A DNA stretch of 64,000 bases, from contig JAAWNQ010000008.1 of NCBI GenBank assembly GCA_022799035.1, forward strand, positions 1 to 64,000, read 5' to 3'. This DNA is from Oscillospiraceae bacterium (lineage in GTDB: Bacteria; Bacillota; Clostridia; Oscillospirales; Oscillospiraceae). Of the stretch, positions 768-4,578 are shown piece by piece (the first letter of the stretch is position 1; every line of letters starts with the position of its first letter). A model generated the notes under the pieces. It was not told where the DNA came from. It was given only the letters and a program-made list of their open reading frames with translations, and searched no databases. The position numbers and the translations under genes are program-made.

Positions 768-1898
768 TTACAGCTCCATCTCCAGCACATCCAGCATCCC
801 CATACTCCCCGGCGCCTGTCCGGTTTTTATAAACCCGTGCCGTCCATAGAACCGCTGGGCCGGGCCGTTCTCCGGGTCGCACAGCAGCCGCAGCTTTTTC
901 CGCCCCATGTCCCGGTATATGCTCACCGCCTGGCCCAGGAGCTGCCCCCCGATCCCCCGGCCCCGGCAGTCGGACCGCAGGTAGAGGAAGGGGATGTGTC
1001 CCACACCCTCCGCAGCCCCCTGGAGGGTGGCCAACTGGAGAAGTCCGATGGGCTGGTCCTGAAACATCACCTGCTGTACCGCCCTGGGATCCCAAAGAAG
1101 CTGCTCCCGGGCCTCGTCCAGAAATCCCGGCCCGTCAAACCCCCGCAGGGAGCCGTGTAGCCCCTCCCAGGCGTCCTGCCGCGCGGCGTAATAGAACCGG
1201 GCCTCCCGCTCCGGCCCCAGGTCTATCCCCCGGAACCACACCGGCGGCACAGGCTCCCGCCCTGCCCGAAGCCCCGCGGCGGTAAGCCGGGGCGGAAGGT
1301 GGGAGATATCGTTCTCAAAGACCACCCGGAACCTGTCCCCCTGTATTTCATAGCAGGACACGGCGGTATTCTCCCCCAGGGATACCCCGGACAGCTCCTG
1401 GGGACGCTTCCCCCGGAGGGCGGCCTGGAGGCACCGGATAGCCATGGCGTGGGACAGGATGACCACCTTTCCCCCGTGGTGCTGGGCCGCCGCCCGGAAC
1501 AGGGCGGCGGTCATCCGGTCCGCCACCTGCTGAAAGGTCTCTCCCTCCTGGGGCGCCCACCCCTCCGAGCAGGAGAAGAACGCCTCATAGGTCTCCGGCC
1601 TGTGGTGAAGAAGCTCCCCATAGGGGATGTTGCTCAACTCCCCCAGATTCACCTCCCGAAAACCGGGATCGGTCCGGACCTCCAGCCCCTTGCTTTCGGC
1701 CATGGGCCGGGCGGTCTCCACGGCCCGGCTCAGGTCGCTGGCGTAGATCCCGTCCAGAGGGATATCCCTGAATCGGGGGACCAGGGTCTGGGCCTGCTCC
1801 CGGCCCGTCCGGGTCAGCTTGCCATCCTGCCAGCCCAGGATCCGGCGGTAGAGGTTACCCTCAGACTGGGCGTGACGGATCAGATAGATGGTAGTCAT
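768..1898 (-). CDS. Histidine phosphatase fused to GNAT acetyltransferase
   Basis: Residues 1 to about 190 are a phosphoglycerate-mutase-like histidine phosphatase. LIRHAQSEGN at 6-15 carries the phospho-accepting His9, and a second motif reads VILSHAMAIRC. Residues about 220-376 are a GNAT N-acetyltransferase ending in SDCRGRGIGGQLL (acetyl-CoA loop) and GPAQRFYGRHGF. The reading frame is continuous, and GGGAGGAAGCCC precedes the ATG. Substrates of both domains are unknown. It could be a metabolite-repair phosphatase with an unrelated acetylase, or a two-step modifier. It stands alone, downstream of the pyrimidine-type operon in the same direction. Confidence 0.85.
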   Translation of the reverse strand: MTTIYLIRHAQSEGNLYRRILGWQDGKLTRTGREQAQTLVPRFRDIPLDGIYASDLSRAVETARPMAESKGLEVRTDPGFREVNLGELSNIPYGELLHHRPETYEAFFSCSEGWAPQEGETFQQVADRMTAALFRAAAQHHGGKVVILSHAMAIRCLQAALRGKRPQELSGVSLGENTAVSCYEIQGDRFRVVFENDISHLPPRLTAAGLRAGREPVPPVWFRGIDLGPEREARFYYAARQDAWEGLHGSLRGFDGPGFLDEAREQLLWDPRAVQQVMFQDQPIGLLQLATLQGAAEGVGHIPFLYLRSDCRGRGIGGQLLGQAVSIYRDMGRKKLRLLCDPENGPAQRFYGRHGFIKTGQAPGSMGMLDVLEMEL

Positions 1899-1991: not shown

Positions 1992-2753
1992 TTACAAAAT
2001 AGTTACAAGTCCCTTCAACTCATTCCGGAAGGCCTCGGCGGCGGTCCGGGCTTCCTCCGGAGAGGGGGAGGGGGGGAGGAGGACCAAAGCCCCCCGGCCA
2101 TATTTGTCAAAAGCGTAGGAAACATCCTGGGCGGAGCCGGAGACCAGAAGGAAGGCGGACTCCCAGCGTTTCCGCAGATTGCGCAGGTCGGAGGGGTAGA
2201 CCCCCTCCAAAAGAAGGCCGGTCCGGCTGTACCCGCACTTGCCCAACTCCTTCTCTCCCAAGCGGTAGGCCAGATCTCCAACCACCTGGTAGACCAGCCG
2301 GTCCCCCGCCACCAGATCCTGGAGCTCCCCGCCCTCGGCGGTCCGGGCCAGGAGGAAAAAGCACTTGTCCTCCTGGCGGCAGAGCTCCAGCAGGGTGGGG
2401 AGGTGGGGACCGCCGGGGTAGCCGCCGACAATGAGACAGTCGGCGGCAAAGGGCTGGGCCAGAAGGGCTGCCGACTCCCCGGCATCCGAGAGCCCCGCCT
2501 GGATCAGGGTGAAAAGCTCCCCCTCCCGGGCCTGGGCAAGGAGGTCCTCCAAAAGCCGCAAACCCTTCCAGCCCAGGGAGGTGAAGGGGGAGAGGGGAAA
2601 GCGGACAGCCGGGACCACGGGGGCGACCTGGCTCAAAAGGCTTCGACAGAAGCCCTCGGCGGTCTCCACCCCCATCCCCGGGGTGGGGGCCACGGTGGCG
2701 CATAGAGGGCATTTTTTTGACTTGATTTTGCTGTGTAGTTGGTCAAAGGACAT
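1992..2753 (-). CDS. Orotidine-5'-phosphate decarboxylase-like protein, catalytic residues lost
   Basis: The 253-residue product follows the type 2 OMP decarboxylase fold along its length. It has the MSFDQLHSKIKSKK start, AVVPAVRFP where the family has VPAVKPQ, ELQDL, ELGKCGYSRTGLLLEGVYP, and LRNLRKRWESAFLLVSG. The catalytic stretch, normally DIKRxDIG with Asp-Lys-Asp, reads QAGLSDAGESA, so the essential Lys and first Asp are gone. The C-terminal phosphate-binding SSRG segment is replaced by proline-rich sequence. It is also shorter than the roughly 300-residue family norm. It is last in an operon with a similarly altered dihydroorotase. It is probably not a decarboxylase; regulatory or scaffold use, or decay, are inferences. 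Confidence 0.7.
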   Translation of the reverse strand: MSFDQLHSKIKSKKCPLCATVAPTPGMGVETAEGFCRSLLSQVAPVVPAVRFPLSPFTSLGWKGLRLLEDLLAQAREGELFTLIQAGLSDAGESAALLAQPFAADCLIVGGYPGGPHLPTLLELCRQEDKCFFLLARTAEGGELQDLVAGDRLVYQVVGDLAYRLGEKELGKCGYSRTGLLLEGVYPSDLRNLRKRWESAFLLVSGSAQDVSYAFDKYGRGALVLLPPSPSPEEARTAAEAFRNELKGLVTIL

Positions 2754-2778
2754 GGAAATCAGCCCTTTCTTTCAAGTT

Positions 2779-3117
2779 TTATTCCTCTTTCTGGCGGCGT
2801 TCCTGGTGCTGGATCAGGTAGATGGCGGACAGGAGGAACAGGTTTGCCAGAGTGTAGAGGGGGAATTCGGTCAGACCCTGGGCCAGTTGGACGAGAAAGA
2901 GGGCCAAAAAGACTGCGGCGTAGGCCCAGCGGTAGCCCAAAGAGGAGTCGCAGGCCAGGAGTCCCAGGGGGAAGGCCGCAGCGGTCCACAGGCAGAAGAA
3001 GCCCAACAGGAAGATAAACACCCCGTCCAGACCGGTGATCTGGGGGAGGAACAGCTTCCAGAGGAGCAGACCCAGCAGGGGAGCGGCGGCGGCTCCGATC
3101 AGATAGCTTTTTTTCAT
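2779..3117 (-). CDS. Small hypothetical membrane protein
   Basis: A 112-residue protein with four hydrophobic stretches (about residues 5-22, 31-52, 64-82 and 88-102) and a charged tail rich in Gln, Arg, Lys and Glu. AAAGGAG precedes the ATG, 12 nt after the stop of the dihydroorotase-like gene, and the next gene follows after 25 nt, so the three form one transcription unit. No family recognised. Its conserved-looking operon position suggests a partner of the two pyrimidine-type proteins, which is inference. Confidence 0.65.
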   Translation of the reverse strand: MKKSYLIGAAAAPLLGLLLWKLFLPQITGLDGVFIFLLGFFCLWTAAAFPLGLLACDSSLGYRWAYAAVFLALFLVQLAQGLTEFPLYTLANLFLLSAIYLIQHQERRQKEE

Positions 3118-3129
3118 GGCGGTCTCCTT

Positions 3130-4407
3130 TCAGCGGGCTTGGTAGACAATGGTTCCGTCCACAATGGTATATTTTACTTTCCCCTTCAGGGTTTTCCCGG
3201 CGTATGGGGTGTTGCGGCCCTGGGAGAGGAAGGCGGAGGGGTCCACCTGCCACTCCTCGTTGGGGTCAAAGATGACAAGATCCGCCGGACCCCCCACCGC
3301 CAGCCGGCCGGAGCCGGGGAGGCCCAGGATCCGGGCGGGCTCGAAGGTCAGCTTCCGCAGCACGTCGGAGAGGCTCATGAGCCCTGAGTGGTACAGGGCG
3401 GTGAGGGAGACCGCCAAAGTAGTCTCCAGAGCGGAGGCCCCGGCGGGGGAGTGGACCAGGGGGAGGGAGGTCTCCTCCTCGGAGTAGGGGGTATGGTCCG
3501 AGGCGATGGCGTCGATGGTGCCGTCCCGCAGGCCCTCCAGGATCCCGTCCACATCGGCGGGGGTGCGGAGGGGAGGCTCCAGGCGGGCGGGGGGGCCCTG
3601 CTCCAGGACCTCCTCCTCCGTGAAGGTGAAGTGGGGGGGACAGGCACTGCAGGTGAGCCGGACCCCCTTTTTCTTGTAGCGGCGGAGGATGGAGACCGAC
3701 TTGGCGGTGGATACCCGGCAGATGTGGACCGCCGTCCCGGTCTCCTCAGCCAGCATGACCTCCCGCATGACCTGGAGCTCCTCAGCGATGGCGGGACGGC
3801 CGGGGATCCGGAGACGGCGGGAGACCTGCCCCTCGTTGATAACAAAATTTTGGCTCAGGTCCGGGTCCTCGCAAAAGGCCAGTACCGCCAGCCCCTGGCG
3901 GTGGGCCAGGATCATGGCATCCCGGAGCAGGTTGGCGTTGCGAAGGGGGGCGGCGTCGGAGAGGGCGGCGGCCCCGGCGGCTTTCAAAGCCTCGAAGTCG
4001 GTGACCTCGGCGCCCTGACGGCCCATGGAGAGGGCGGCGATGGGGAGGACCCGGGCGCCGGGAGCGGCGGCTGAGAGCTCACGGAGATAGGTCACGCCCC
4101 CGGGGACGTCGATGGGGGGCTGGGTGTCGGGCAGGCAGCCCACCGTGGTATAGCCGCCCGCGGCGGCGGCCCGGGAGCCGGAAGATACCGTCTCCCGGTA
4201 TTCATACCCTGGCTGGCCCAGGCGGGCGTGGAGGTCCACCAGCCCGGCACAGACCGCAAGGCCCCCGGCCTCAATAATCTGGGCGTCAGGCGCGGACAGG
4301 TCGCTGCCGATGACGGCCACCTTGTCTTTTTCCAGAAGAATGTCCATCACACCGCCGATGCCGCTGACCGGGTCTATCAAACGGCCCTTTCGGATGAGAT
4401 ATTTCAA
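3130..4407 (-). CDS. Dihydroorotase-like protein with altered metal site
   Basis: The 425-residue amidohydrolase matches class I dihydroorotase in length and order: N-terminal MKYLIRKGRLIDP, AAAAGGYTTV, LPDTQPPID, IASDHTPYS at 301-309, and C-terminal NTPYAGKTLKGKVKYTIVDG. Known zinc ligands are altered. The HxH pair reads H60-A-R62, the His of the HCED motif is Phe178, and the His of HICHVST is Arg231. The substrate Arg and Asn are also changed (LGQPG for LREPG, LPDT for MPNT). Asp151 and Asp304 remain. The start is TTG, 6 nt after AAAGGAGG. Either a pseudoenzyme or a changed activity; canonical dihydroorotase is unlikely. Confidence 0.75.
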   Translation of the reverse strand: MKYLIRKGRLIDPVSGIGGVMDILLEKDKVAVIGSDLSAPDAQIIEAGGLAVCAGLVDLHARLGQPGYEYRETVSSGSRAAAAGGYTTVGCLPDTQPPIDVPGGVTYLRELSAAAPGARVLPIAALSMGRQGAEVTDFEALKAAGAAALSDAAPLRNANLLRDAMILAHRQGLAVLAFCEDPDLSQNFVINEGQVSRRLRIPGRPAIAEELQVMREVMLAEETGTAVHICRVSTAKSVSILRRYKKKGVRLTCSACPPHFTFTEEEVLEQGPPARLEPPLRTPADVDGILEGLRDGTIDAIASDHTPYSEEETSLPLVHSPAGASALETTLAVSLTALYHSGLMSLSDVLRKLTFEPARILGLPGSGRLAVGGPADLVIFDPNEEWQVDPSAFLSQGRNTPYAGKTLKGKVKYTIVDGTIVYQAR

Positions 4408-4513: not shown

Positions 4514-4534
4514 AAAAAGGGGGCCGAAGGCCCC
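4514..4534 (-). terminator. Intrinsic terminator in the leader of the pyrC-like operon
   Basis: Read on the minus strand, GGGGCC-TTC-GGCCCC is followed by CTTTTTG. It lies about 10 to 30 nt after the predicted transcription start and well before the TTG start at 4407, so it can act as an early attenuator. No classical PyrR-binding loop was recognised. Confidence 0.55.
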
Positions 4535-4549
4535 TGATTTTCCCTTTTT

Positions 4550-4578
4550 ATTATAATGGACAGCGGTGGTTTTCGCAA
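4550..4578 (-). promoter_or_regulatory. Sigma-A promoter of the pyrC-like operon
   Basis: On the minus strand TTGCGA (4578-4573), a 17-nt spacer and TATAAT (4555-4550). It points to the pyrC-like gene and leaves a leader of about 135 nt containing a terminator hairpin. Confidence 0.6.

Follow-up and report, generated by a model that had tools for sequence, protein, structure and literature searches.

Inactive homologues of dihydroorotase are already known: pseudo-dihydroorotases include the pDHO of the Pseudomonas class A2 aspartate transcarbamoylase (ATCase) and, in fungi, the pDHO domain of Ura2 (PMC7053772). In the working type-I dihydroorotase PyrC of Aquifex aeolicus (PDB 3d6n/4bjh), the alpha metal is held by His61, His63 and Asp153, and activity stays intact when His180 and His232 of the beta site are both changed to alanine (PMC3880350). 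For OMP decarboxylase, the relevant enzymes are PyrF proteins of the TIGR02127 subfamily from Anaerococcus (3r89) and Streptomyces (3v75); a search of the open-access literature returned nothing relevant on an inactive homologue, and neither a constrained pseudo-OMP decarboxylase nor a pair like the one described here is reported in that literature as far as we found.

We analyzed a window of 64,000 nucleotides from a gut bacterium of the Oscillospiraceae (GCA_022799035.1, contig JAAWNQ010000008.1, positions 1 to 64,000), in which homologues of both enzymes, here called pyrC' and pyrF', lie on either side of a small membrane protein gene. The features of the locus are:

4550..4578, reverse strand: promoter TTGCGA-N17-TATAAT upstream of pyrC', kept in each of the 14 genomes examined, whether their locus is working or degraded
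4520..4534, reverse strand: leader hairpin and T run resembling an intrinsic terminator, in attenuator position between promoter and pyrC', with a counterpart in 14/14 leaders
3130..4407, reverse strand: pyrC', coding from a TTG start for a catalytically degraded homologue of type-I dihydroorotase (425 aa)
2779..3117, reverse strand: small membrane protein gene between pyrC' and pyrF', 112 aa, 2-3 hydrophobic segments
1992..2753, reverse strand: pyrF', OMP-decarboxylase homologue (pyrF_sub2 type), 253 aa

All three reading frames are intact, each is preceded by a good purine-rich Shine-Dalgarno sequence, and the gaps between them measure 12 and 25 bases. On the same strand, 94 bases after pyrF', window positions 768-1898 encode a fusion of a histidine-phosphatase domain with an acetyltransferase-like one, in a gene whose position is kept across the genus. 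The expression signals are common to working and degraded loci: TTGC[GT]A-17-TATAAT stands 97-224 bases upstream of pyrC in the 14 genomes read, and a GC-rich hairpin with a T run follows roughly 15-50 bases past the promoter. Such a terminator in the leader suggests a putative attenuation mechanism. A pyrimidine-specific RNA leader was considered and set aside: an Rfam search of the leader matched neither PyrR nor any other leader family, although the terminator hairpin is conserved.

PyrC' has the fold and the full-length homology of a type-I dihydroorotase. It aligns end to end with the A. aeolicus enzyme, its best solved relative (phmmer E 9e-109, 43-44% identity), and it scores above the general dihydroorotase model TIGR00857 (347 bits for a cut-off of 279), so it would be annotated as an enzyme. 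The predicted structure is confident along the whole length (pLDDT 95) and comes closest to the Aquifex protein in its ATCase complex (4bjh; Z 62.8, rmsd 1.1, 420 residues aligned). Unlike the A. aeolicus enzyme, PyrC' has replaced substrate residues, both beta-site histidines and, in the window species, one histidine of the alpha site. Arg62, Phe178 and Arg231 stand where working orthologues have His; Gly64 replaces the substrate Arg of HxHxR, RLEPPLR has Glu for the substrate-binding Asn of RVNPPLR, and Tyr308 replaces the second His of TDHAPH (DHAPH). One Asp of the DDG motif is deleted, and the remaining one may serve as Asp153. Of the alpha ligands, His60 is kept and His62 has become Arg; of the TDHAPH residues, Asp304 is kept in the window species and is Gly in two sisters (G014 and G001). 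Because Phe178 and Arg231 fall at the beta-site positions that are dispensable in A. aeolicus, these two changes alone would not prove inactivity. Judged from the alignment, the decisive losses are His62Arg, Asp304Gly and the clade-wide changes in substrate binding. His62Arg alone costs the protein an alpha ligand, and it is confined to the window species; the other four of the five species with PyrC' keep His60, His62 and an Asp possibly equivalent to Asp153, and a mononuclear metal site may survive in them. Animals have inactive dihydropyrimidinase relatives of the amidohydrolase superfamily, CRMP/DPYSL, with a structural or signalling role. These proteins appear among the fold matches of PyrC' and are distant, eukaryotic and without any sign of shared function.

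PyrF' is altered as well. Its homology to OMP decarboxylase is recognisable (phmmer 3e-13), and OMP decarboxylases are still the top structural matches of a moderately confident model (pLDDT 72; Foldseek TM about 0.7). In contrast to the 3r89 and 3v75 enzymes, it lacks the DxKxxD motif, reading IQAGLSDAGE for the canonical IADAKRGDIG, so that both Asp and the Lys are gone; the phosphate-gripper loop PGYGAQG is deleted, and the Arg of NASR is missing. Part of the N-terminal substrate loop is also missing, and the ribose Lys is now Arg. At 64 bits PyrF' falls under the curated pyrF cut-off of TIGR02127 (110.6 bits), which the G011 homologue exceeds at 152 bits; between species, the catalytic segment is deleted or unalignable.

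The preliminary description of this DNA had claimed that both neighbours lost catalytic residues, that substrate residues had changed in the dihydroorotase-like protein, and that the OMP-decarboxylase-like protein lacks its catalytic Lys, Asp and phosphate loop, all in intact frames that share an operon with a small membrane protein. Alignment with working orthologues bears this out. Its reading of Arg62, Phe178 and Arg231 as lost zinc ligands was right about the residues, but the latter two belong to the dispensable beta site. The membrane protein has orthologues in G008, G001 and G011. That it was part of the change is unsupported: G005 and G010 have weakly similar open reading frames between their working pyrC and pyrF, and G014, with its inactive pair, has no such frame.

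The window genome (2.27 Mb, 95% complete) holds one other dihydroorotase, one canonical PyrF and one ATCase, all encoded in a complete canonical operon, pyrC-carB-pyrK-pyrD-pyrF-pyrE-pyrB, that lies elsewhere in it. A second PF00215 match in this genome (C60:70134) was rejected as another pyrF; by eye, its start resembles ribulose-phosphate 3-epimerase. The pyrC of the complete operon has a relative at 58-72% identity in about half of 150 family genomes and at 42-49% in most of the remainder. Within the genus, this second pyrC was found in G000 (the window genome), G014, G012, G015 and G006, while its absence from G008, G001 and G011 is uninformative at assembly completeness of 67-84%. G000, G014 and G012 group together in its tree (100/99); G006 and G015 are not firmly placed, and the tree is compatible with one or several acquisitions.

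The old locus can be followed across the genus, mostly in incomplete, multi-contig assemblies. In G007, a SigK-like sigma factor gene upstream and the histidine-phosphatase/acetyltransferase gene downstream enclose canonical pyrC-pyrF-pyrK-pyrD, and the same flanks surround the degraded pair of the window. Most other species carry canonical pyrC-pyrF at the orthologous locus, usually with pyrK-pyrD, and with or without intervening membrane open reading frames. Given these loci and the complete operon elsewhere, the window pair is a relic of a displaced operon. Both proteins are degraded in G000, G008, G014, G001 and G011, with all frames open, and pyrK and pyrD are absent after pyrF' in the degraded loci read. 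G015 has lost pyrC' and kept a degraded PyrF', which brings the PyrF' losses to six species; G006, G012 and G013 have neither gene. Since both genes are missing from three species and a fourth retains PyrF' alone, the role of the pair is dispensable at the scale of the genus, not essential.

The species that share the losses group together in trees. In an rpoB tree the five species form (G011,((G008,G000),(G001,G014))) beside G006 and G012, and the gene trees agree with this grouping, with G015 placed less certainly. Fixed in all five PyrC' proteins are Val61Ala, Lys71Arg, the lost Asp of DDG, Gly152Ala, His231Arg, Val276Leu and Met353Leu; fixed in all six PyrF' proteins are Asn15Cys, Gln232Pro and the loss of the phosphate loop. 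Among 400 family genomes, only this group has the His231Arg motif in a dihydroorotase: one pattern match in another genus (G060) was discarded, as reading found no dihydroorotase frame there.

Selection was estimated with a codon branch model (GY94 type, F3x4, own script) that fitted one omega to the working branches, another to the stem of the degraded clade and a third to its crown. For pyrC, omega is 0.060 on working branches, 0.77 on the stem (indistinguishable from 1) and 0.080 in the crown; for pyrF the corresponding values are 0.072, 0.29 and 0.18, in a model that does not count the PyrF' deletions. Omega = 1 in the crown is rejected for both genes (2dlnL 945 for pyrC', 398 for pyrF'). 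This is the pattern of a burst of change when catalysis was lost and of constraint that then returned, with PyrF' evolving 2-3 times faster than the working enzyme. On the terminal branch of the window species omega is 0.074 for PyrC' and 0.22 for PyrF', and PyrC' omega is near 0.08 or lower on the branches that lose His62 (window species) or Asp304 (G014, G001). Between G000 and G008, pairwise omega is 0.065 for PyrC', 0.16 for the membrane protein, 0.20 for PyrF', 0.123 for the phosphatase and 0.024 for the sigma factor. Branch dS in the degraded clade is about 0.2-1.1, a moderate saturation; saturated deep pairwise values (G008-G001) were not used. Both proteins thus combine lost catalytic residues with purifying selection, as pseudoenzymes do. 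The proposal of the preliminary description, a retained non-catalytic or new function, appears well founded on these comparisons: bona fide pyrC and pyrF are present in the complete operon, the losses are common to relatives whose frames are all open, and dN/dS after the loss is low in both genes.

We consider it reasonably probable that PyrC' and PyrF' are pseudoenzymes from the genus's original operon, retained in a non-catalytic structural or regulatory role. The comparisons show that the original pyrC-pyrF-pyrK-pyrD operon was displaced by a second complete operon, of a kind that many other members of the family carry, and that pyrK and pyrD are gone from the old locus. They also show that the native catalytic apparatus was lost before the five species with PyrC', or the six with PyrF', diverged, that purifying selection has acted on both proteins since then, leaving PyrC' almost as strongly constrained as the working enzyme, and that promoter, leader terminator and ribosome-binding sites were kept. 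Constraint continued while different species lost different catalytic elements, which makes a non-catalytic role the most likely one: with His62 lost in one species, Asp304 in two and omega not raised, the conserved feature would not be a reaction. Most simply, the proteins may instead have a structural or regulatory role that depends on the preserved fold and on the surfaces for oligomers or partners, and a protein-interaction role already held by the enzymes could have kept both once catalysis was redundant. The least certain step concerns the partners, which might be each other and the membrane protein, or the new pyrimidine enzymes. A more specific version is tentative and rather doubtful: here the two former pyrimidine enzymes would join the membrane protein in a non-catalytic complex linked to the membrane, and PyrF' would be the first pseudo-OMP-decarboxylase in nature shown to be under selection for a function.

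PyrC', and perhaps PyrF', could also have become new enzymes that have given up the native substrate and carry out another reaction with a mononuclear alpha metal site or a rebuilt pocket. In the ancestor, His60, His62 and an Asp at the DDG position were probably still present, the A. aeolicus enzyme can do without its beta-site His (PMC3880350), the clade-wide Arg231, Ala152 and Glu for Asn could make a new pocket, and a stem omega of about 0.8 is in line with a shift in function. We nonetheless regard this as unlikely: the low omegas on the branches that lost His62 or Asp304 argue against it, no catalytic constellation is common to all five PyrC' proteins, and the catalytic segment of PyrF' is not maintained between species.

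A subunit role in ATCase, with PyrC' as a pseudo-dihydroorotase like that of the Pseudomonas class A2 enzyme, has a direct precedent, for the Pseudomonas pDHO is inactive yet required for ATCase activity (PMC7053772), and the closest structures to PyrC' are those of Aquifex DHO from its ATCase complex. PyrC' resembles the pDHO proteins in keeping the dihydroorotase fold and the gene after loss of zinc ligands and substrate residues, its own inactivity being predicted. It differs from the Pseudomonas and Ura2 proteins in that its gene adjoins a degraded pyrF, away from pyrB, with a working pyrC elsewhere, and in its recent origin inside one genus whose ancestral ATCase was of the PyrB-PyrI type. 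The pDHO gene-to-pyrB linkage of class A2 ATCase is lacking: pyrB lies on another contig, in the other operon. This second-operon PyrB (L052:6288-7373) is fused to a C-terminal segment that matches the zinc part of PyrI, without the nucleotide-binding part. Because PyrB of working relatives is partnered by PyrI (class-B architecture), and because the window-genome PyrB carries its own PyrI-type zinc segment (an indirect point), the ATCase role is less likely; it also leaves PyrF' unexplained, and we give it little credence.

Neutral relics on their way to loss, in which stops and frameshifts have simply not yet arisen, would account for the displaced pathway, the deletion of pyrK and pyrD, the loss of pyrC' in G015 and of both genes in G006, G012 and G013. 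Against this stand the crown omegas of 0.080 and 0.18, with omega = 1 strongly rejected, and a synonymous divergence summed over the clade of 4.7 (PyrC') and 6.5 (PyrF') per site that has produced no stop or frameshift in five or six species. Neutrality is contradicted between species, and what could remain is a very recent relaxation in the window species, where branch omegas are 0.07 and 0.22; as an explanation, neutral decay is very improbable. A constraint that merely keeps translation open to the downstream gene was dismissed by reasoning, as it selects against stops and frameshifts and cannot give an omega of 0.08. Finally, that the two proteins still usefully catalyse the dihydroorotase and OMP decarboxylase reactions is barely credible, for although PyrC' passes TIGR00857 with an intact fold, it lacks the substrate Arg, Asn and His as well as the alpha ligand His62, PyrF' lacks the Lys and the two Asp of OMP decarboxylase, and a canonical set is encoded elsewhere in the genome.

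Read as retained pseudoenzymes, PyrC' and PyrF' offer a natural experiment in pseudoenzyme birth, in which a second pathway took over, two adjacent enzymes lost catalysis together, and the constraint on PyrC' barely relaxed. Close species still represent every stage, from the ancestral working state through half-degraded and degraded ones to loss. Much of what constrains these housekeeping enzymes would then be unrelated to the reaction and experimentally separable from it. In annotation and metabolic models PyrC' would be mistaken for a dihydroorotase.

Other pyrimidine loci of the genus show further variation. G002 (L166, C4:82000-96304), a 96% complete genome that does not belong to the degraded clade, lacks any match to pyrB or pyrD and any pyrK-pyrD downstream of pyrF, yet keeps intact pyrC and pyrF. 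In its PyrC the substrate Arg is replaced by Cys, and the Asn of RVNPPLR by Asp. The branch omegas of G002, 0.11 for pyrC and 0.064 for pyrF, are far below 1. This looks like an independent, early stage of the same process, on the thin evidence of one genome; if so, retention of PyrC and PyrF after loss of the pathway is a repeated outcome. In G015 (L058:2972-5156), a large recombinase gene splits the SigK-like sigma-factor gene adjoining the pyr locus, in the manner of a skin element. In G011 (L060:6791-10942), a pyrC-pyrK-pyrD cluster adjoins a gene resembling N-carbamoyl amino-acid hydrolases and may serve the breakdown of orotate rather than its synthesis.
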